From a candidate division KSB1 bacterium (lineage in GTDB: Bacteria; Zhuqueibacterota; JdFR-76; DREG01), in NCBI GenBank assembly GCA_022566355.1, contig JADFJB010000100.1:1-17554 (forward strand): a stretch of 17,554 nt of DNA, read 5' to 3'. The notes below the pieces were generated by a model. It saw only the letters and a list, made by a program, of their open reading frames with translations, made no database searches and was not told the origin of the DNA. The position numbers and the translations under genes were made by a program. Shown here piece after piece: positions 1 to 11,231 of the stretch (the first letter of the stretch is position 1; the number at the start of each line of letters is the position of its first letter).

Positions 1-368
1 TGTTTGGCAGGCAATGTAGACGGTCACGGTAATCCCGGACTGGTTAACCCGGGTAACCAATAACCTGGCTTGCATGATAGCTATCGTCATGGAAGAGTCC
101 ATTACAAGAGACACAAAACAACGATAGTAAACCACACACTGTCCACATAGCGTTCCGTAAGGAAACTTACGGGATAATCAAGCAGAAGTCAGCAGAGACC
201 ATAGTAGCCGAATGCTCAACGTAATGGTTGAGATATGGTGAAGGGTTGAACATCGTGAGTCAAGGAGTAGCTTCGTTAGTCCTCGTTTACAATGCAGATT
301 CCCGATCGGGATTAGTTGTGAGACGGCGCATTAGCGATTGCAAACCTTGAACAAGAAGGAGTAAGTGT
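1..368 (+). ncRNA. Group II intron 5' RNA domains (partial, domain I to IV)
   Basis: This stretch upstream of the intron RT has no convincing ORF but is rich in short self-complementary segments. Examples are CCCGG/CCGGG-type pairs near 33-55, GATAGCTATC around 77-86, and ATTCCCGATCGGGAT around 298-312. This is the folded intron RNA, with the RT gene placed in domain IV. I cannot assign the domain borders or the exon-binding sites from sequence alone. The RT ribosome binding site AAGGAG lies at 356-361. Confidence 0.7.
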
Positions 369-1622
369 ATGTTGGAACTAATTCTCAATCGAGCCAACCT
401 ACTTCGTGCCTGGAAACGCGTGCGTGCCAACTGCGGCGCTGCCGGAGTCGACGGTGTAATCATCGAAGACTTTCCGGCATGGCTTCGGGCTCACTGGTGT
501 GAAGTCAAAGCGTCACTGTTGGACGATAATTATCGTCCAGCACCGGTTAAGCGGCACGACATTCCCAAGCGTAGTGGCGGCAAACGTCCGTTGGGTATCC
601 CGACGGTACTTGACCGTGTGATTCAACAGGCGATATTGCAGGCGCTACAACCACTATTTGACCCGGATTTTTCTGAGTCGAGTTATGGTTTTCGCCCTGG
701 TCGATCCGCCCATGACGCGGTTAAACGTGTCCGAGAGATATTGGACAGCGGCTACATGTGGGTGGTGGACATCGACCTGTCAAAGTTTTTTGATAGAGTC
801 AATCATGACGTTCTCATGGCCCGTGTAGCACGCAAGGTGAGAGACAAGCGCGTTTTACGCATAATTGGCCGCTACCTCAGAGCAGGAGTCGAAGTGGACG
901 GCAAAATTGAGCCGACCACAGAAGGCGTTCCGCAGGGTGGGCCGCTTTCGCCTTTGCTTGCCAATATCGTGTTGGACGATTTTGACAAAGAACTGGAACA
1001 GCGTGGTCACCGTTTTGTGCGTTATGCCGATGACTTTCTTATTTTCGTCAGAAGCAAGCGTTCAGCCGTTCGTGTTGGCCGCAACGTCATCCGGTTTCTC
1101 AAGCGTCGGCTGAAACTGGAAATTAATCGCCAGAAGAGCCGCATCGTTCGAGGCGAGAACTGCGAGTACCTGGGGTTTATTTTCCCGGGTAAACGCATCG
1201 TCTGGTCGTCCGAGTCGCTTGCGAATTTTAAGTATAACATCCGCCGCCTGACAGCCCGAAGCTGGGGTATCTCCATGGAGGCTCGGTTTCAGAAGCTGTC
1301 AAGCTACATTCGCGGCTGGATGAATTATTATGCTTTGTCAAGGTACTACCGTCCACTTCCGGAGTTGGATGAGTGGATTCGTCGTCGTGTTCGGATGTGC
1401 TATATGAAACAGTGGCGCAGAACTCGTACTCGGATTCGTAATCTTCTCAGTCTCGGAGCATCCAAATCGCAAGCAATTCCAGTGGGCTTGAGTAGTAAAG
1501 GCCCCTGGCGACTTGCTCGGACGTATGCGACCCAATTGGGTATGAATAACGCCTGGCTCAAAGATCAAGGATTAGTTTCGGTTCGCGAACTCTGGATTGC
1601 GTTTCACTATCCGAATGGTTAG
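369..1622 (+). CDS. ltrA: Group II intron reverse transcriptase/maturase (class C)
   Basis: Multifunctional intron protein: it helps the intron RNA splice and reverse-transcribes the inserted intron. The 417 residues show the RT fingers and palm, with SYGFRPGRSAHDAV near residue 105, PQGGPLSPLL at 188-197 and the catalytic YADD at 219-222. A maturase (X) domain follows at about 286-356 (RGWMNYYALSRYY), then a basic C-terminus. There is no HNH endonuclease domain after it; such short proteins are typical of class C introns. The ATG at 369 has a strong AAGGAG seven bases upstream. The stop lies 16 nt before domain V, the normal arrangement. All expected RT motifs are present, so the protein is probably functional. 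The symbol ltrA is used in the family sense only. Confidence 0.96.
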   Translation: MLELILNRANLLRAWKRVRANCGAAGVDGVIIEDFPAWLRAHWCEVKASLLDDNYRPAPVKRHDIPKRSGGKRPLGIPTVLDRVIQQAILQALQPLFDPDFSESSYGFRPGRSAHDAVKRVREILDSGYMWVVDIDLSKFFDRVNHDVLMARVARKVRDKRVLRIIGRYLRAGVEVDGKIEPTTEGVPQGGPLSPLLANIVLDDFDKELEQRGHRFVRYADDFLIFVRSKRSAVRVGRNVIRFLKRRLKLEINRQKSRIVRGENCEYLGFIFPGKRIVWSSESLANFKYNIRRLTARSWGISMEARFQKLSSYIRGWMNYYALSRYYRPLPELDEWIRRRVRMCYMKQWRRTRTRIRNLLSLGASKSQAIPVGLSSKGPWRLARTYATQLGMNNAWLKDQGLVSVRELWIAFHYPNG

Positions 1623-1638
1623 TGAATCCTTCGATGAA

Positions 1639-1702
1639 CCGCCCGGTCCCGGCTAGCCGGGATGCCGGGTGGTGTGGGGAGGGCGGGAGTGAAACCCGCC
1701 CT
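1639..1702 (+). ncRNA. Group II intron domains V and VI
   Basis: Domain V is an exact 34-nt hairpin at 1639-1672. CCGCCCGG (1639-1646) pairs with CCGGGTGG (1665-1672, one G-U). A bulge follows, then CCCGG (1648-1652) pairs with CCGGG (1657-1661) around a CTAG loop. The catalytic triad reads CGC rather than AGC, the class C form. Domain VI is the next hairpin: AGGGCGGG (1680-1687), loop 1688-1694, CCCGCCCT (1695-1702). The intron then ends with the short tail TACCCGAT. Confidence 0.9.
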
Positions 1703-1710
1703 TACCCGAT

Positions 1711-1715
1711 TAGGC
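1711..1715 (-). other. Half of an attC core site (R'') split by the intron
   Basis: The first bases of the intron's 3' exon are TAGGC, so the minus strand reads GCCTA up to the intron border, right at the end of the HNH gene. GCCTAAC is the common R'' core (RYYYAAC) of integron attC sites. The missing AAC would be on the other side of the intron, outside the window. Known IIC-attC introns cut this sequence and lie antisense to the cassette gene, as here. This is inferred from five bases plus context. Confidence 0.5.
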
Positions 1716-2518
1716 AAATATTCACTCCATTCATGAATTTCGTAATGCCTTAAAATATACTGAGCTAAAGGCCAATGGTCTTTATTCTTTGGCAACATCA
1801 TTTTCTTTAAATGAAGATTGACGGTTAACAGTTTGTCATATTCAGAATACGGTCCTTCATCCATATCAGGGTCATAGAATACGATTCTGTAGTCATCTGT
1901 AATTGTTATCATGCCTTGGTCAAACAGACTGTGATGAAAGCTGTTTAATAATATCCCGTTTCGAATATCCATCCGTTCGGATTTTGACGATTTAGACCAA
2001 GGAATGATATGTGCTGCTTGCAATCCAGAAACAAATGAAAGTTTGGTGAATGCACATTTATTCTTATACGTTTTTAGCAAAGCATCACGAAACATTGATT
2101 GGGCTATACCCCTTGTTTTAACTTTAACATAAACATCTTCTGACTCTTCTGGTTTTTGTATCAGAGTAGTTATAAGTTGATCGTATCGTTCTCCGTCACT
2201 GGCATATGAGAACGGATTATCTATTAAATCCCAATTATACTCGACGACCTTATTGAAACCCTCATCATAATTGTCTACGTCCCACGCTATAAAGCCACCT
2301 CCTGGTTTTCCAGATTGGTTTACAATAAGGATTGTCAAAGGTGGTAGCTTTTCCTCTAAACAGTAATCTTGTATAAGTCCAAGGACATATCTAACAGTTC
2401 GATGATGGATGCCGATAGCATCTCCAAGTGCTTTATACGCTATCGTTTTACCTTTCTTAGCCTGTCCAATCAAAATTGGCCACGCCAGATATGCTCTTTC
2501 AGCTTGATTTACTGCCAT
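1711..2518 (-). CDS. HNH endonuclease, 3' end interrupted by the group II intron
   Basis: Predicted metal-dependent DNA endonuclease. The C-terminal half has an HNH fold from about residue 150 to 205. It shows a CAFT knuckle (second Cys absent), the AAHIIPWS histidine motif, then RNGILLNSFHHSLFDQG with the Asn and His of the signature. The N-terminal ~100 residues (KTIAYKALGDAIGIHHRTVRY, then LPPLTILIVN) look like a winged-helix or alkyltransferase-like DNA-binding fold; this is a weak resemblance only. I chose the ATG at 2518 because AAGGA lies just upstream; an in-frame TTG at 2539 has no such support. After residue ~269 the frame runs into antisense intron DNA and stops at 1619, adding about 30 foreign residues. 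The gene looks like integron cassette cargo, perhaps for restriction or defence; the true substrate is unknown. Confidence 0.85.
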
Positions 2519-2530
2519 TTTTTTGTCCTT

Positions 2531-2537
2531 GCCTAAC
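2531..2537 (-). other. attC/attI-like core GTTAGGC before the HNH start
   Basis: The minus strand reads GTTAGGC, then 12 bases, then the HNH ATG. GTTRRRY is the R' core at which integron integrases join cassettes, and cassette genes usually start within a few bases of it. With GCCTA at the gene's other end, this gives the HNH gene both cassette boundaries. No matching RYYYAAC partner was found upstream on the minus strand, so the site that should end here is degenerate or is not an attC. Confidence 0.4.
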
Positions 2538-2539
2538 AA

Positions 2540-2857
2540 GTAATTCTAAAGAACTGTAGATCATCTCATTTGACATGATATACGGAATGAACACATCCGC
2601 CTAACATAAGTATGAATGAGTCCCTCGTAATATTTATAGGTTACAAATAAACTCGTTCATCCAAATCATTAATAACAGCTATTAATATCATAATAACAAA
2701 TACTTAAATACATTTATTGTATTTTCTTTTTCCAGTATAAGCGACTGATCTAAACCGGTTCGGGCTAATATTATTTTAACGATTCCACAGGGTGCGAACA
2801 CCTCTACTACCCTGATCAGAATTGAATACCAATAATTTATTCCATTAGCCCCAATTA
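2540..2857. other. Intergenic region between HNH gene and lipoprotein gene
   Basis: AT-rich, with no convincing ORF. It holds a second GTTAGGC (minus strand, 2599-2605) and, right behind it, an imperfect inverted repeat: ATGAATGAGT at 2613-2622 against ACTCGTTCAT at 2651-2660, with one mismatch. This resembles the L'/L'' arms of an attC beside R'. Otherwise there is one small hairpin near 2788-2814. No clear promoter was recognised. Confidence 0.5.
2788..2814. repeat. Small hairpin downstream of the export operon
   Basis: CAGGGT (2788-2793) and ACCCTG (2809-2814) form a perfect 6-bp stem. Within it a competing hairpin GGTG-CGAA-CACC (2791-2802) is possible. It lies 44 nt past the last stop of the minus-strand operon, so it may be part of a terminator or an RNA end. 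No T-run follows on the minus strand, so an intrinsic terminator is not supported. Confidence 0.35.
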
Positions 2858-3800: not shown

Positions 3801-5348
3801 CTATTCAATGCCAATTATACTTTGATTTTTTTCGAAATCGAACATCGTCTTGCGCTTCAAATCAGCCAGTGACAATTTGTAATCGATATAAGCATTTAGA
3901 TAAGAAAACTTCGACTGAGTGAGTCTATTTCTGTCCAATGCGAGTTCCTGAACTGTTATATCGCCATTGTTAAATCTTTCAATGGATATATCGAAAGCTT
4001 TTTGAGCTACTTCCTGGTTTTTAATCAAAACTTCCAATCGATTCTCTGCTTCATTCAGCTTCCCTACAACTTCACGCACCTCTCGTGTGATGGTTTTATG
4101 TTGCTCATCAAGCCCTAATGCCACGGTGGACAAATTAGCATCTGCCGCCGCCACCTCGGCTGAATTTACACCCCAGTCCCAGATTGGCATTGAAAGTGTA
4201 AATACAACACCACGATTATTGGGCCGTCTCCTCATATCTTCAAAACTTGAATCAAATAATGTACCTGGCGCGGAGCCATACGGAAGAGAGGGATCGCTAA
4301 TTCCGGTAATATCATAAAACGCCTCAATATCACCGCGTATTTCACTCCTGGCGTCCGCTTCTTTAACGGCGAGTTTGGCCAGTTCAACATCTATTTTTGA
4401 TTCACGAATTTCAGATCGGTTTGCCAGCGCCATAGTGATTGCTTTATCCAGATCTACAGTGATTTTTGAAAAATCAAAATCGGTTTGTACGCCGATATTG
4501 TCGGAAAATTTCAAACCGATTAACTGTTTAAAAACATCCTCGCTTCTTGCCAGATTACCCTGGGCTTCGACTAAAGCATTCTTGCTTTCAGCCAAATCGA
4601 CTTCCATTTGTAAAGCCTCTACCTCTGGAATTAAACCTGCTTCATATTTTTTGCTGGCGAGATCGTATAGTTCCTGTTGCTGGTTTGCATCATCATTTGC
4701 GATTTGTTCTAGTCGAGTTGCTTGATATAAATTGAAGAACGCTTGTGTCACTAAATATACGATATCTAATTCGCTTCTCTTATAACGAAGGGCGGTGCGT
4801 TCGTAGTTTAGATTGGCATTATTTAATCCTAATTTTAATCGATTAATTGTAAAAAGCGGTTGCTGGAAACGAAGGCTCAATGATGTATAAACTTCCTTGC
4901 GCTTTATATCCTGGGTTAAATCGGCGGTGAATGTAGAAACATCCCTGTGATAGACAAATCCACGCAGTGTGAATATCCCATCGGTAGGCAACGGCTGGTT
5001 TATATCAAAGATACCCTGGAAACGAAGTCGGCTGGTTGTATTAAAAACCGGCAAAGCGTTCTGGACCTGGATTTCACTGACCGATTCACTCCAACTTGGC
5101 ATATCAAATCGTATATCGGCATTGGTTTTAAATCTACCTTTGGCTGCATGGAGATTCTCTTCGGCTTGCACCAAACTTAACCGCAATGTCTTCATCCGGT
5201 AGCTTTTTTCCAGCGAAATTGCAATAGCGTCTTTTAATGTGAGGAGTTTCTTCTCTTGGGCTGTTGAATAACTTACAAGGAGGAAAAGCAAGATAGATAT
5301 GATAAACAGAATTCGGAATATTTTAAACTGATGGTTCATTGTAATCAT
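3801..5348 (-). CDS. TolC-family outer membrane efflux protein
   Basis: Outer-membrane channel that docks on the HlyD-type adaptors encoded upstream and lets substrate leave the cell. A signal peptide (hydrophobic run FRILFIISILLFLLVSY, cleavage near AQEKK) is followed by two OEP repeats, about residues 35-260 and 290-510. Each has long amphipathic helices (for example QQELYDLASKKYEAGLIPEVEALQ split over the first repeat, and AFDISIERFNNGDITVQEL in the second). The total of ~515 residues is slightly longer than classical TolC. I chose ATG 5348 because GGAGGA lies just before it; ATG 5360 overlaps that same site. It follows the frameshifted exported-protein gene by 26 nt and shares the operon with the permease and adaptors. 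Fold and role are clear; the substrate is not. Confidence 0.93.
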   Translation of the reverse strand: MITMNHQFKIFRILFIISILLFLLVSYSTAQEKKLLTLKDAIAISLEKSYRMKTLRLSLVQAEENLHAAKGRFKTNADIRFDMPSWSESVSEIQVQNALPVFNTTSRLRFQGIFDINQPLPTDGIFTLRGFVYHRDVSTFTADLTQDIKRKEVYTSLSLRFQQPLFTINRLKLGLNNANLNYERTALRYKRSELDIVYLVTQAFFNLYQATRLEQIANDDANQQQELYDLASKKYEAGLIPEVEALQMEVDLAESKNALVEAQGNLARSEDVFKQLIGLKFSDNIGVQTDFDFSKITVDLDKAITMALANRSEIRESKIDVELAKLAVKEADARSEIRGDIEAFYDITGISDPSLPYGSAPGTLFDSSFEDMRRRPNNRGVVFTLSMPIWDWGVNSAEVAAADANLSTVALGLDEQHKTITREVREVVGKLNEAENRLEVLIKNQEVAQKAFDISIERFNNGDITVQELALDRNRLTQSKFSYLNAYIDYKLSLADLKRKTMFDFEKNQSIIGIE

Positions 5349-5374
5349 GCATTCCTCCATAATTTTGGGTTTGT

Positions 5375-6206
5375 CTATTGAAAATTTCTTTTTCGAAATT
5401 CAATCAAGTCTTGAATGGTTTTTGCTTCACTAATATGATTTCTAACTAAACGATGGAAAACAATATCCCCTCCATGAGACTTATAAAATGCTAAACGTTT
5501 TAAAATATTTAATTTTTTTTCATTTGATTTTTCCTGCTCAAGACGTAACAGATCTTTTCTATATTCGAATTCTGCTACGGAATTCAAAGACTGAATTAAC
5601 TCCCATACTGGTTGTCGATTTGCCTTATAATCATCTAATAATTTTTTATAAAGTTTGTGATATGTTTTGTTAAAATCTTGATAAGAGAATATTGAAGAAG
5701 ATGTCGTAACCGGATAATCCCCAAAATTGTTTGGATAGATATGTCCTAAAGTAAAAATAGAAGCTTCCAATTGAATATTACCATGCCCTGCTTCATTTAT
5801 AAAATTATCCAATTCCTTCCCAATAACACGTACTTCGGTACCAGTTTTATAAGGAGACTTGACTTTCTCTTCAGAATATGGTACTCGTTCACAAGAATTA
5901 CCCATAAAGTAAAGATAAACTTCAAAATACCTTTTTGGCTTGTTTGGTGTGAAAATCTCATCTTTTAATTCGACCAACAGACCATATGCTTCATTACTAT
6001 TTTTTCTACCGTCATATGACCAAAAATTTATAGTTTTAGGACCAATAATCTTAGTAACACGGGCCAAGGAAAATATATTCAGTTTTATCAAAATTAATAG
6101 GAAGCACATAGTGGGGGGAACATGCGATAATTTTACTATACGAATTAAACAAAGTAATCAAAATTGTAAAAATAATTACTGATGATTTTTTCAATGGGTC
6201 TCTCAT
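5375..6206 (-). pseudogene. Exported protein of unknown function, frameshifted
   Basis: Two overlapping frames together make one plausible secreted protein of ~275 residues. The first frame (ATG 6206, or 6245 overlapping the permease stop) gives MRDPLKKSSVIIFTILITLF, a signal peptide, then ACSPHYVLPINFDKTEYIFLG and a stop at 6051. The second, open from about 6060 to 5375, continues ARVTKIIGPKTINFWSYDG. Removing one C from the CCC run near 6062 joins them as FLGRVTKIIG. Both frames fit one protein, so a one-base indel is the simplest reading. The Cys followed by a beta strand of the F-L-G-R-V-T type recalls netrin/TIMP-like bacterial proteins, but weakly. The C-terminal half is charged and helical (KKLLDDYKANRQPVWELI). 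It sits between permease and channel genes, so it may be a periplasmic accessory. Function unknown. Confidence 0.65.
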
Positions 6207-6237
6207 GAAAAATATTATTGTTTGCGGAACATCTGGA

Positions 6238-7476
6238 TTATTCATGCCTTAACGCCTCGATGGGATTCAGGTTTGCGGCGCGTTTAGCCGGAAATGTACC
6301 AAATATGATACCCACCGCACCAGACACACCAAATGCCAGGATTACAGATAGGGGTGTAATGATGGTGGTAAATTCTGCCAGGCTGTCTATTATTAGCGAC
6401 ATTACAAATCCAAGTGTAATTCCAATAATACCTCCAGCTAAACATAGGCCTACGGCTTCCACCAAAAACTGTATAAGGATTTCATTTTTTTTAGCGCCAA
6501 TGGATCGTCGAATACCGATCTCGCTGGTGCGCTCTAGAACCGAGGCCAGCATAATGTTCATAACGCCAATGCCTCCAACCAGAAGTGAAATCGCCGCTAT
6601 CGAACCTAGTACAACATTATAAATGCGGGTTTCCTTTTCTTCTTGCTTTAGGAGTTCGTATGGAATGATGATATCAAAATCTTCATTTTTATGATGACGG
6701 CGGTTTAAAATCCGGCTTATTATTGCGGCGCTTTCCACTAACTTTTCCGATTCATGAACCTTTACCGTCAGCTGATCGATTTGGCTGGCAAGTTGCTTTT
6801 CCTTGCTAAACCGCCGCAGAAATGTAGAAAGAGGAATATAGACATCTTGATTTAAATTCCGTGAGGCTAGCTCGCCAATTGTTTCGGTGAACAAGGATTT
6901 GGGGGCCATCGTCCCAACAACTTCGAACCACTGATCATCCAATTTAATTTTCTTACCCACCGGGAATTGAACCGGAAATAGTTTTTTGGCAACTTCAGCG
7001 CCAAGGACGCATACGCGAAGTTCCCGTTTATGATGATCGTTAGATAAAAATGTTCCATGCTGCGTTTCATAATTCAACAGATATTTGAACACATCCGTTA
7101 CACCCACAACCGTAGTTTTTGTGGATTTGTCTTCATATTTCGCCTCGGAATCAAACTCGGCCTGGGGGGCAACCTGCTCAATAGTTGGAATGATTTTTTT
7201 AATGGCTTCAGCGTCTTTCAGAGAAAGACCGCGAGAGAATTTTGCCCGAACTTCTTCTAATTCTTTATCGCTTAAATCTTTATCCCGTACGATGATATTA
7301 TTAACACCCAATTCCTTATATTTTTTTAAGGCTTCCCGTTTGGCGCCTTCTCCAATAGAAAGCATGGCGATGACGGCTCCAACGCCAAAGATGATACCTA
7401 GCATCGTTAAGATAGATCGCAACCTGTGGACTTTTAAACCTTCTAAACCAATAAATAAACTTTCTTTGGTAATCAT
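6238..7476 (-). CDS. MacB-type ABC transporter permease, no ATPase domain
   Basis: Inner-membrane permease with the MacB/LolCE/FtsX topology. TM1 lies near residues 20-42 (LRSILTMLGIIFGVGAVIAML), followed by a large periplasmic MacB_PCD domain (~45-275). Three more membrane segments follow, with the FtsX signature VLERTSEIGIRRSIGAKKNEI after TM2 (~310-335). It ends in NPIEALRHE, the usual end of this family. At 412 residues it is a lone permease half; true MacB carries its own N-terminal ATPase, which is absent here. Such subunits work as dimers with a separate ATPase, and none is encoded nearby. The ATG overlaps the stop of the third adaptor gene (ATGA), and AGGGTGG just upstream can act as ribosome site, so translation is coupled. 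Confidence 0.93.
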   Translation of the reverse strand: MITKESLFIGLEGLKVHRLRSILTMLGIIFGVGAVIAMLSIGEGAKREALKKYKELGVNNIIVRDKDLSDKELEEVRAKFSRGLSLKDAEAIKKIIPTIEQVAPQAEFDSEAKYEDKSTKTTVVGVTDVFKYLLNYETQHGTFLSNDHHKRELRVCVLGAEVAKKLFPVQFPVGKKIKLDDQWFEVVGTMAPKSLFTETIGELASRNLNQDVYIPLSTFLRRFSKEKQLASQIDQLTVKVHESEKLVESAAIISRILNRRHHKNEDFDIIIPYELLKQEEKETRIYNVVLGSIAAISLLVGGIGVMNIMLASVLERTSEIGIRRSIGAKKNEILIQFLVEAVGLCLAGGIIGITLGFVMSLIIDSLAEFTTIITPLSVILAFGVSGAVGIIFGTFPAKRAANLNPIEALRHE

Positions 7477-8663
7477 TGTACCACCCTATCAGAATTAAAA
7501 ATGGTATCACCGGTTTTTAAGTCTCCATAAACAACGACTGAATTGTTATTGCGAGGGCCGATGGTAACTTTGACCTCTTTTTTACCAGATCCATCTTTTA
7601 CGAATACAAAATACTCGCCTCCGTTTTCGTAAATGCACGAGTTGTTAACAAACAATGCATCCTCCATCTCCGCCACTAAAATTTCACAACTTACTGTCAT
7701 CCCCGGTCTTAGAATCCGTGCAGATTGATTGAGCAGAACCGTTACATCAAATATTTTGACTTTTGAATCCTTGTCTTTTTCATGGCAAATTTTGCTGATT
7801 GAACTAATCGATCCATCGAAGATAGTCTTCGGAAACGCATCTAACCTGACAGTAACTTTCTGTCCCAGTTTAATTTTTTCAATATCGGTCTCACTCACAG
7901 AAGTAAGCACTTTCATTTTACGTAAATCAGGAAGTCCGATGATTGGCTCGCCAGGAAATAATTGATCTCCTATTGCGACCTTCTCACCCCTTCTTTTTTT
8001 GCGATAGACAATCATACCGTCTGCCGGTGCACGCAAAATATATCGATCAATGGTTCTTATTGCTTTTTGGATTTCGGATTTGGTTTTTTCAATTTTCAAT
8101 TTTTGAATTAACAGTTCTTCTTTTTGGATTCTATATGTATGTTCTAAAGTCCTCTTAGCCTTTTGATATGAGATTTCGACTATTTTTAATTTTAGTTTGT
8201 TCATCTCTATTTTTGTTTGCGATTCAAACCGGACTCTTTGAGTATCAATTCGAGCCTGGCGAAGTTCTGCTCGGGAAGATTGAATATCCGCGTCCAGTTT
8301 TTTTAATTGAGATACATGCCGCACTGCTAATTTCCTGAAATCAGCCCGCCCAATTTCCAGATCTGCTCTTTTTTGTCCGAGGACTCGTACGACACCCGAG
8401 GAATCAAGTTGTCCGACAAATTGGCCTTTCTTGACGAGTGTACCCTCTTTTTCGAGAGCGGTAATTTGTGGCCTGCCATATGACCAATCGAATATTGGCA
8501 TGGGGATTACCGTCGAATTCAGGGCCTGAAGTTCACCGGTCTCAGTTAAAAATTCTTTGAATTCACCACTTTCAACTCGATAATTGTGATCGTTAATGAT
8601 GCTGCAGCTACTGAACAACAAATAAGCAATAATGCAAATCAGGTTTTTAGTTTTTTGTTTCAT
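7473..8663 (-). CDS. HlyD/MacA-type periplasmic adaptor lipoprotein (third of three)
   Basis: Membrane-fusion protein that bridges the permease and the TolC-type channel. N-terminal MKQKTKNLICIIAYLLFSSC is a lipoprotein signal peptide (F-S-S-C), followed by the first lipoyl half. A coiled-coil hairpin rich in Lys, Glu and Gln covers about residues 85-195. The second lipoyl half (LRAPADGMIVYRKKRRGEKV) and beta-barrel domains follow (RLDAFPKTIFDGSISSIS; LRPGMTVSCEILV). A TTG at 8675 would overlap the previous stop, but the ATG at 8663 gives a normal signal peptide. It starts 8 nt after the second adaptor gene and overlaps the permease gene by 4 nt. It is more like the second adaptor (shared KDSKVK, RLDAFP, PGMTVSCEI) than the first, which suggests duplication. 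Confidence 0.92.
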   Translation of the reverse strand: MKQKTKNLICIIAYLLFSSCSIINDHNYRVESGEFKEFLTETGELQALNSTVIPMPIFDWSYGRPQITALEKEGTLVKKGQFVGQLDSSGVVRVLGQKRADLEIGRADFRKLAVRHVSQLKKLDADIQSSRAELRQARIDTQRVRFESQTKIEMNKLKLKIVEISYQKAKRTLEHTYRIQKEELLIQKLKIEKTKSEIQKAIRTIDRYILRAPADGMIVYRKKRRGEKVAIGDQLFPGEPIIGLPDLRKMKVLTSVSETDIEKIKLGQKVTVRLDAFPKTIFDGSISSISKICHEKDKDSKVKIFDVTVLLNQSARILRPGMTVSCEILVAEMEDALFVNNSCIYENGGEYFVFVKDGSGKKEVKVTIGPRNNNSVVVYGDLKTGDTIFNSDRVVQ

Positions 8664-8671
8664 GATTTTAT

Positions 8672-9910
8672 TCAATTCGAATTTGATTCTTTTGCATAGT
8701 TCGTAGTTTGATTTAAAAATGGATTCATCAATGCGATTTGGTCCCCCTCTTTTAGTCCACCGGCGATAACCACATAGTCATCATTCTCAGGTCCGATGGT
8801 GATAGAGTGGGGTTCAAAATCGTTTCCATTTTTCAAATAAACAATATTCCCTCCAGCAACATTGAATAATGCTTCGAGGGGAATGAATAAAGTATCCGGA
8901 ATTTGATTTAAGATAATTTCACAACTGACAGTCATGCCTGGCATTAATTTTTCGTTACTTTCATCTAACAGAATTGTTATGTCAAAAACTTTTACTTTTG
9001 AGTCTTTCTCTTTATTTCGCGCCAATGCAGCAATATCCGATACTTTTCCGTGAAATACAGTTTCCGGAAAAGCGTCCAGTCTAATATTGGATTTCTGCAT
9101 GGTATCAATTTTCGCTATATCCACTTCATTAATTTGCACTATCGCCTGCATTGCACTCAAGTCAGGTAATCCAATCATGGGCCAACCCGGCCAAACCTGG
9201 TCGTCAACCTGGTATTTAGATCGGGTCATCATGCTTTTTTCAATGACAGCGATACCGGGAGATGGGGCAGAGACGCTTAGTTTTTCAAAGGTGGCTTTAG
9301 CTTCCTCCATTTTGGTTTGTACCTGGGAAACTCTTAAGTTTTGCTTGCTAATTTCTTCACGATTAATACTTTTTTGGCTTTCTATTTCCAATTTCGCTTT
9401 TTCCAATGCTATACCCGCTTTTTCTAATTCAAGCTCGATTTCCTTCCTCCTGATGTCTGATTCAAATGTTGCTTTTTCTAAATTCAATTGTGAAATTCTA
9501 TGTTGAAGAGAGGTTTTTTCAAAGTCTGCCTGCAAGCCTTCGATTTGTGAAGCTTGCGTGGCATGTGTTTTTCTTAATTCAGCTTCTGCAATTTCTAATT
9601 CAGCTTTTGCATCGTCAATACCTTTCGCAACTTCGGCTTTATCAAATTCGATTAATAATTCACCTGCTTCAACTTGTTTACCATCCTCAATAATTTTTGT
9701 GATTTTTAATCCTCCAAAACGCCATGAAATACTGGGTGCTGTAATTCTTTGTGAATTCACTGCCATCAATTCACCGGTTTCAGTTATACTATCTATGAAA
9801 TCTCCCCGAACCACCGTATATGACTCCAGGGATGCACCGGTATTTGATTGACAGGATCCAACCATAAAACACAGCGAAATCAACTGCAATGCCTGGTATT
9901 TTCTTTTCAT
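8672..9910 (-). CDS. HlyD/MacA-type periplasmic adaptor lipoprotein (second of three)
   Basis: Membrane-fusion protein of the same export machine. The lipoprotein signal ends in CFMVGSC (V-G-S-C lipobox). The first lipoyl half follows (SISWRFGGLKITKIIEDGKQ), then a long coiled-coil hairpin at about residues 90-205 (AKAELEIAEAELRK; KEIELELEKAGIALEKAKLE). The second lipoyl half (VSAPSPGIAVIEKSM) comes next, then barrel and membrane-proximal domains with RLDAFPETVFHGKVSDIA and LMPGMTVSCEIIL. The ATG at 9910 has only a weak TAGG-like ribosome site. It starts 13 nt after the first adaptor gene, so the two are co-transcribed. All adaptor domains are complete at 412 residues. Together with its neighbours it may form a mixed adaptor ring; that is inference. 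Confidence 0.93.
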   Translation of the reverse strand: MKRKYQALQLISLCFMVGSCQSNTGASLESYTVVRGDFIDSITETGELMAVNSQRITAPSISWRFGGLKITKIIEDGKQVEAGELLIEFDKAEVAKGIDDAKAELEIAEAELRKTHATQASQIEGLQADFEKTSLQHRISQLNLEKATFESDIRRKEIELELEKAGIALEKAKLEIESQKSINREEISKQNLRVSQVQTKMEEAKATFEKLSVSAPSPGIAVIEKSMMTRSKYQVDDQVWPGWPMIGLPDLSAMQAIVQINEVDIAKIDTMQKSNIRLDAFPETVFHGKVSDIAALARNKEKDSKVKVFDITILLDESNEKLMPGMTVSCEIILNQIPDTLFIPLEALFNVAGGNIVYLKNGNDFEPHSITIGPENDDYVVIAGGLKEGDQIALMNPFLNQTTNYAKESNSN

Positions 9911-9923
9911 TTTTTGAACCTAC

Positions 9924-11231
9924 TTAATTTAAATTATCCATTAAAGTTGAACTCGAGTCGGTTACACTTGTATATGGCTTTAATTCATCCGGCCATTTAA
10001 CCTGGGAATTATTTGGCTGGCGCAGGGCACACAAATCGCCGATACTTAAATCACCTTTGATAATAACAAAATCCTCATCTTGTTGCGACACAGCGATTGG
10101 ACATGGGTGAAACGATCCCTTTTTGAATACATAAACGATTTTCACGCTATCCTTTTCAAAAAGGCATTCTTTTGGAAGGAATATTGCTCCTGGTATTTTT
10201 TCAATTTGGATCCGGCAAGTTGCACTCAGTCCGGGCACAAGTTTTTGAAATGTGCTATCGATCGTTACAATCACATCCACCTTTTTCACCTTCGAGCCTC
10301 GTTTGATTGGCTTCGCCATTCTTCCGACTCTCGAAACTTTACCCGTTAAAATTAAATCTCCCAGTACAGGTACGAAGACAGTTGCATTTTGTCCAACCTT
10401 TACCTTCTGAGCATCATTTTCACTGATTTTCAAATTTACCTGCAGGGATGACATATCTGGTATTTTTACTACCGGCATATTTGGGTAAATAGCATCCCCT
10501 TCCTGGACTTTATTCCCGGTAATCCAACTTCGTTCGTACACCACGAGACCATCAACCGGAGCCTTTAAATCCAAGAGATCTAATTGAGATTTGGATCGCT
10601 GCAGTTTGCTTTGCGCCTGTTTGATCTTCAATAGCATGTGAGCAAGTTCTTCTATTTTTATCTTTTCTAATGCCTTGATCTTGTCTCTACTTACTTTGGC
10701 TTCCAGCTCGATTTTTTTAATTTCCAACTTTTTAATTTCCCTGGTTGTTGGCGCTTCAAATTTCAATTTATCCAGGTGGAGTTTTGAGGTTTTAAGTGAA
10801 GCCAGGGCTATTTTCAGTTGAGATTCCTGCAAAAGACGCTTTAAGGTTAACTCCGCTTCTTTTTTGTGAGCATCTGCTTTGGCAATTTCAACCTCATCCA
10901 AGGCATTTCTATAATCACTCTCTATCGTCTCAGCTTCCAGTTGAACGACAATATCGCCTTTCAAAACAGCTGTTCCCTCTGGAATTAAATAAGATATTTT
11001 GGGTTGAGCCCGCACACGAGGAACGACCAACATATGTGACTTCACCGCTTCCAGCTCTCCATCTCCATCAACTGTAATGACAAAATCCATTTGTGAAACC
11101 GGATAAGTGATTTGTGAATGATTTTGTTCTGAGGAAGTGCAGGCAATAGTGAGTATGGCGGGAAGAATCAAAGATCTTAGGAAACTAAAACAGAAAATAT
11201 TGAAAAGGCTCTTAATGGATGATTTCATCAT
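9924..11231 (-). CDS. HlyD/MacA-type periplasmic adaptor lipoprotein (first of three)
   Basis: Membrane-fusion protein and first gene of the export operon. The signal sequence ends LTIACTSS, a slightly atypical lipobox with Cys near residue 31. The order is lipoyl half (PKISYLIPEGTAVLKGDIVV), coiled-coil hairpin at about residues 100-220 (KKLEIKKIELEAKVSRDKIK), second lipoyl half (LKAPVDGLVVYERSWITGNK), then barrel domains with RRGRMAKP-type basic loops and LVPGLSATCRIQI. It is the most divergent of the three adaptors and has a Ser-rich C-terminal tail. GAGAG lies directly before two adjacent ATGs (11231 and 11228); either could start. Expression is probably driven by the promoter at 11318-11344, leaving a leader of about 80 nt. 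Confidence 0.93.
   Translation of the reverse strand: MMKSSIKSLFNIFCFSFLRSLILPAILTIACTSSEQNHSQITYPVSQMDFVITVDGDGELEAVKSHMLVVPRVRAQPKISYLIPEGTAVLKGDIVVQLEAETIESDYRNALDEVEIAKADAHKKEAELTLKRLLQESQLKIALASLKTSKLHLDKLKFEAPTTREIKKLEIKKIELEAKVSRDKIKALEKIKIEELAHMLLKIKQAQSKLQRSKSQLDLLDLKAPVDGLVVYERSWITGNKVQEGDAIYPNMPVVKIPDMSSLQVNLKISENDAQKVKVGQNATVFVPVLGDLILTGKVSRVGRMAKPIKRGSKVKKVDVIVTIDSTFQKLVPGLSATCRIQIEKIPGAIFLPKECLFEKDSVKIVYVFKKGSFHPCPIAVSQQDEDFVIIKGDLSIGDLCALRQPNNSQVKWPDELKPYTSVTDSSSTLMDNLN

Follow-up and report, generated by a model that had tools for sequence, protein, structure and literature searches.

The window (the whole stretch of DNA analysed, 17,554 nt) very probably carries at its left end a group IIC-attC intron lodged in the attC bottom strand of an HNH endonuclease gene cassette, antisense to the gene, with the R'' core split as TTGT|TAGGC and with a decayed reverse integron alongside, its attI end adjoining the cassette. 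This kind of element is already known; what is new is its occurrence, with a second truncated copy, in a little-studied phylum, the KSB1-type phylum of the host. A literature search found no published report of IIC-attC introns in this phylum, and likewise none on its integrons or group II introns. The feature reaches past the first 2,537 nt to which the first-pass annotation had assigned it, its attI-like site and integrase relic extending to about 2842. Its parts are as follows.

1..1710, plus strand: group IIC-attC intron (Rfam D1D4-1 match; alignments with relatives; a second copy in the genome has the identical 3' end)
151..246, plus strand: conserved D1-D4 segment, RF01998 (group-II-D1D4-1), 62.3 bits, E 2.4e-9
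369..1622, plus strand: intron-encoded reverse transcriptase/maturase (RT), class C, without endonuclease domain (profile matches; RT tree)
1636..1673, plus strand: domain V, from its fold, with the CGC triad at 1640-1642 and an apical stem longer than that of relatives
1676..1710, plus strand: domain VI and intron 3' end, from its fold, ending ..CTTACCCGAT at 1710
1711..1715, plus strand: 3' exon TAGGC, complementary to what is left of the HNH cassette's attC R'' core, GCCTA(AC)
1711..2518, minus strand: HNH endonuclease cassette gene, ATG at 2518, HNH_2 domain at 51 bits
2531..2537, minus strand: R' core GTTAGGC at the cassette boundary, complementary to the R'' remnant (1711-1715)
2538..2598, minus strand: stretch between two GTTAGGC cores (68-bp repeat unit), without a recognisable attC R'' half
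2599..2605, minus strand: attI-like core GTTAGGC, where homology to contigs C24 and C108 stops
2601..2747, minus strand: attI-like region, 80% identity over 147 nt to C24:15931-16076, similar also to C108, C15 and C28
2774..2842, minus strand: integron integrase (intI) 3'-end relic, frame broken, alignable to the C-terminal intI relics on C15 and C24

The genome measures 4.6 Mb in 213 contigs, one of which (G000:C100) is the window itself, so that base 1 is a contig edge. Alignment to complete relatives (IIC-attC introns of class 1 integrons and of the same phylum) indicates that some 245-270 nt of the intron's 5' end, all within D1, and the whole 5' exon lie off that edge; the missing intron part was searched for on the other contigs of the genome and found on none. 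The visible ribozyme features are the D1-D4-1 segment and the domain V-VI fold, which within 1632-1712 has an energy of -52.8 kcal/mol (z -5.4). The RT frame is intact and encodes 417 aa, matching TIGR04416 (group_II_RT_mat) at 418 bits; it carries RVT_1 and GIIM only, and both the absence of an endonuclease domain and the class C CGC triad are as the first-pass annotation had read them. The Rfam model RF00029 gives no match in the window at E<=1, yet it matches in two related loci (L198 and L022); it misses the longer-stemmed domain V of the window copy, which may therefore not be active. A match to snR5 in the window scored below its gathering score and was set aside as chance.

The intron, its 3' boundary and its orientation are directly observed. 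The border reads CCCGAT|TAGGC, the exon starting at 1711 directly after the last intron base, and the HNH gene lies on the opposite strand with its 3' end at this border, 1710/1711. The HNH frame reads on antisense into the intron for some 30 codons, as far as a stop at 1621-1619, and does not use the TAA within GCCTAAC. The cassette is bounded before the gene by GTTAGGC at 2537-2531 (minus strand), 12 nt upstream of the ATG, and after it by GCCTA (1715-1711), to which the final AC of GCCTAAC would presumably have belonged. Thus the position, exon bases and upstream core that had first drawn attention to this locus all hold on re-examination. TAGGC also begins with the T of the R'' core, as in the TTGT|TRRRY junction by which IIC-attC introns are recognised. 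The HNH protein is similar to restriction-type HNH proteins in PADLOC (84 bits); its resemblance to a phosphorothioate-DNA restriction family falls below the cut-off. No intron-free homologue of the cassette was found, the best matches in relatives being some 40% identical along a portion of the protein and those on plasmids all less than 60%. An attC hairpin is not visible at this locus because the 5' exon is missing, and a simple attC scanner, unreliable for attC orientation, returned only chance-like hits in the window. From the five exon bases and their context we infer that an attC, with TTGT as 5' exon, would have stood here.

A second copy in the same genome retains both exons. Positions C15:13516-13548 match the final 33 nt of the window intron with no mismatches and lie antisense directly behind HigA; the junctions read GAGAAGT|intron 3' end|TATCC. 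The order on C15 is intI pseudogene, GTTATCC, HigB-HigA, then GGATA|33-nt intron 3' end|AC... Without the intron fragment GTTATCC is restored, identical in all seven bases to the cassette's core on the attI side, so the expectation that the 5' exon completes a cassette core is confirmed for C15; the 5' exon of the window copy is off the contig. The C15 3' exon TATCC likewise starts with the T of the R'' core; its 5' exon is AAGT, closely preceded by a hairpin that has a single bulged base. At both loci the cassette's start core is the complement of its end core (GTTAGGC/GCCTA in the window, GTTATCC/GGATAAC on C15). At least two moves of this intron family have taken place in this genome. In the C15 region (L027, C15:6000-20000), positions 6380-7550 hold a degraded intI, a site resembling attI, the first cassette HigB-HigA and, in the end core of that cassette, the intron tail.

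The suggestion of an integron nearby is supported, with two corrections: the intI and attI relics lie on the right of the HNH gene and not, as had been expected, on the left, and the integrase is a relic only. The intI-relic/attI-like element occurs five times in the genome (in the window and on four other contigs), always decayed. The C15 and C24 copies start with a decayed integrase C-terminus, reading ..VLNQGGRGVRSP(V/A)DRLK, and C15 also retains IntI-type segments that match intact IntI proteins of the phylum. The genes that follow the core differ, being HNH in the window, HigB-HigA on C15 and a putative DUF4145-like gene on C108, all on the same strand, and the end of the window's homology with C24 and C108 at the GTTA core is as expected of an attI. 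The intI relic points in the same direction as the cassettes, with attI on its 3' side, which makes the whole, as relics, a "reverse integron". No match in the window's genome rises above the TIGR02249 cut-off, and only decayed pieces of intI are present. The strongest TIGR02249 matches, on C20 and C96, resemble XerC/XerD genes and were rejected; for this reason, and because 14 of 14 control genomes also match TIGR02249, no intact intI is claimed, and the element is filed as a relic rather than as a working integron. A promoter scan found fewer sites than in shuffles, so no Pc is claimed.

Several minor features adjoin these relics. Positions 2538-2598 of the window, between the GTTAGGC direct repeats, are possibly a decayed gene-less cassette. 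On C108 (L026, about 700-1460, reverse strand) the attI-like relic is followed by the DUF4145-like gene, a possible cassette whose end core was not found. On C24 (L025) a diverged third match to the intron 3' end, with 3 mismatches, lies at 4453-4474, about 0.5 kb from the attI relic, and at about 5270-5400, past that relic, a degenerate attC-like stretch, GGCTAAC..TTCAGCTGACGG..TAGCTGAGTTCGGCGTTTAGG, was spotted by eye. Farther along the window, 3801-11231 encodes an outer membrane efflux protein, a MacB-type permease and several HlyD-like adaptors, which seem to form a single efflux cluster.

An RT tree (a quick tree with SH-aLRT support only, in which the long rows L137 and L020 are unsure) groups the window RT with those of IIC-attC introns. 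The window pairs with L198, from the same phylum and 84% identical (support 100), inside a clade of KSB1 and Planctomycetota members (support 99); the Bacillota-dominated, terminator-type clade is separate (branch support 100). Site labels on the tree are loose where the 5' exon is lacking: L113, L142 and L147 (Bacillota) and L126 were labelled TTGT/TA from the 3' exon alone. L198 has a complete attC bottom strand of 124 nt with the insertion at CTTGT|TAGCT, its intron lying antisense behind an ORF whose stop falls a few bases before the core. The TTGT 5' exon and an attC bottom-strand hairpin are present in L198, L083 and L022, and the junctions of gamma-proteobacterial relatives are mostly TTGT|TA.., many with a recognisable attC bottom strand. 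The first-pass reading, a class C-attC intron lying antisense where a gene cassette ends, in a chromosomal integron of a host outside the Proteobacteria, is thus supported by the tree, the relatives' junctions, the attI/intI relic and the C15 copy with both exons. One closely related copy, L118 (in G040), has a terminator-like hairpin and then CAGTG, not TTGT, at its 5' junction, so members of the window's clade are not always attC-targeting; in G040 what comes after the 3' exon is the end of an Mrr-type restriction gene read from the other strand. The contig of L198 (G056:C248) has a further strong attC-like hairpin at 2017-2085 (scanner score 16.3). Two contigs of G040 (L201 on C107, L202 on C51) end and start inside an RT with a 141-nt overlap, a break typical of multi-copy introns.

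The L118 junction is one reason to weigh whether the window intron is of the ordinary group IIC type and sits behind an intrinsic terminator belonging to the HNH gene or to some gene on the left, TAGGC being there by chance. Most IIC introns insert in this way (PMC4424553), and IIC-attC introns retain the use of other hairpins (PMC7923331). However, the window RT stands apart from the terminator-inserting clade, TAGGC matches the HNH gene's own start core GTTAGGC, an intI/attI relic adjoins, and the C15 copy restores a cassette core, so that we regard this explanation as very improbable. Less probable still, to the point of being hardly credible, is an assembly chimera at the contig edge that has joined an intron and an HNH gene not truly adjacent. 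The contig does end inside the intron, and contigs of relatives break there too (C107 and C51 of G040, with their overlap in the RT); the HNH junction, however, is 1.7 kb from the contig edge, coincides exactly with the intron 3' end and has a cassette-type 3' exon, and the same arrangement recurs on C15.

The alternative to be taken most seriously, though still unlikely, accepts the attC insertion and questions its surroundings: the intron would sit in an isolated attC or CALIN, and the intI/attI-like sequence to the right would be a dispersed repeat with a piece of intI in it instead of this cassette's own platform. Five occurrences, always decayed, in a genome where an intact intI was not found would suit a dispersed repeat, as would the 68-bp unit without recognisable attC that separates attI from the HNH cassette. 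Against it, the copies cease to be homologous at the GTTA core, directly after which come genes that differ between copies (HigBA, DUF4145-like, HNH), on the same strand.

On the preferred reading, an attC insertion beside the attI of a decayed reverse integron, the intI relic, attI and the HNH cassette follow one another in that order along the minus strand. From published work on its class we infer that spliced intron RNA and its RT would have reverse-spliced into the single-stranded, folded attC bottom strand, a target probably recognised by its hairpin together with IBS1 TTGT and IBS3 T. The cDNA would then have been primed from a replication-fork strand, since this RT has no endonuclease domain. 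The route described for IIC-attC introns (PMC7923331, PMC4424553) is reverse splicing at TTGT/T, with the folded attC bottom strand as target and fork strands as primers. The C15 copy, retaining the 3' end only, is what incomplete reverse transcription or a later deletion would be expected to leave.

The closest known systems are the proteobacterial IIC-attC introns, of which S.ma.I2 is one named in the literature. Those on plasmids NZ_CP071026.1 and NZ_OQ420468.1 have RTs 52-54% identical to that of the window, likewise without endonuclease, and lie antisense in class 1 integron cassettes behind genes such as dfrA14 and aadA1. Shared features are the 3' end ..TACCCGAT, the TTGT|TA.. site in the attC R'' core, its TTGT half being presumed for the window, and, in complete relatives, the 5' end GTACGCCC. 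The window intron differs in its KSB1-type host, its own RT clade with KSB1 and Planctomycetota members, the longer apical stem of domain V, the decayed reverse integron and the missing 5' part. UHB.F1, a truncated IIC-attC intron from a hypersaline soda-lake metagenome (PMC7923331), is similarly truncated, antisense in a cassette array and at a contig edge, and its best hit is also outside Proteobacteria, in a Verrucomicrobia bacterium; frameshifts are reported for it, whereas the window RT is intact and is accompanied by intI/attI relics and a second copy in the same genome. In the reverse integrons of Treponema denticola, intI and the cassettes are codirectional and attI separates the first cassette from the 3' end of intI (PMC7691350). 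The window has the same arrangement, but its intI is only a relic and an active platform is not visible. Bacillota terminator-type group IIC introns (B.h.I1 type) share the class C RT and the IIC ribozyme, but form the separate RT clade, end in ..CTCGAT and have a T-rich 5' exon without an attC core.

With these results the range of integron-targeting retroelements takes in a KSB1-type phylum in which integron integrases abound: of 99 genomes (the window's genome and relatives), 41 encode an intI, intact or as a long part of one. The simple attC scanner, applied around the intact intI genes of the phylum, found little array. A 22-nt pattern of the intron 3' end, with up to 3 mismatches allowed, occurs at 44 places in 12 of 82 genomes of the phylum vs 1 for the reversed control (the exon bases TA are included in the pattern and so are not independent evidence). 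Among 30 loci read, few retain an RT, and in most others only domain V-VI or less is recognised. An ORF of at least 90 aa ends on the opposite strand within 45 nt of 11 of 27 tails, compared with 4.9% of random sites (p 2.5e-8, a guide only because some copies may be related by descent). We offer as a tentative and rather doubtful proposal that IIC-attC introns have spread through the cassette ends of KSB1-type bacteria, for the most part as copies that are 5'-truncated or lack the RT, with tails repeatedly left between a cassette gene and the attC remainder, as their proposed role in building cassettes would leave them. Full, RT-less and truncated copies, recurring at cassette ends, provide material with which an intron role in the making of gene cassettes can be tested. 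Locus L223 (G056:C408) holds a complete RT-less intron of IIC-attC type, 729 nt long, with D1-D4 and domains V-VI, at the site TTTGT|TAGAA; the stretch before its domain V is common to L207, L222, L230, L234 and L235.
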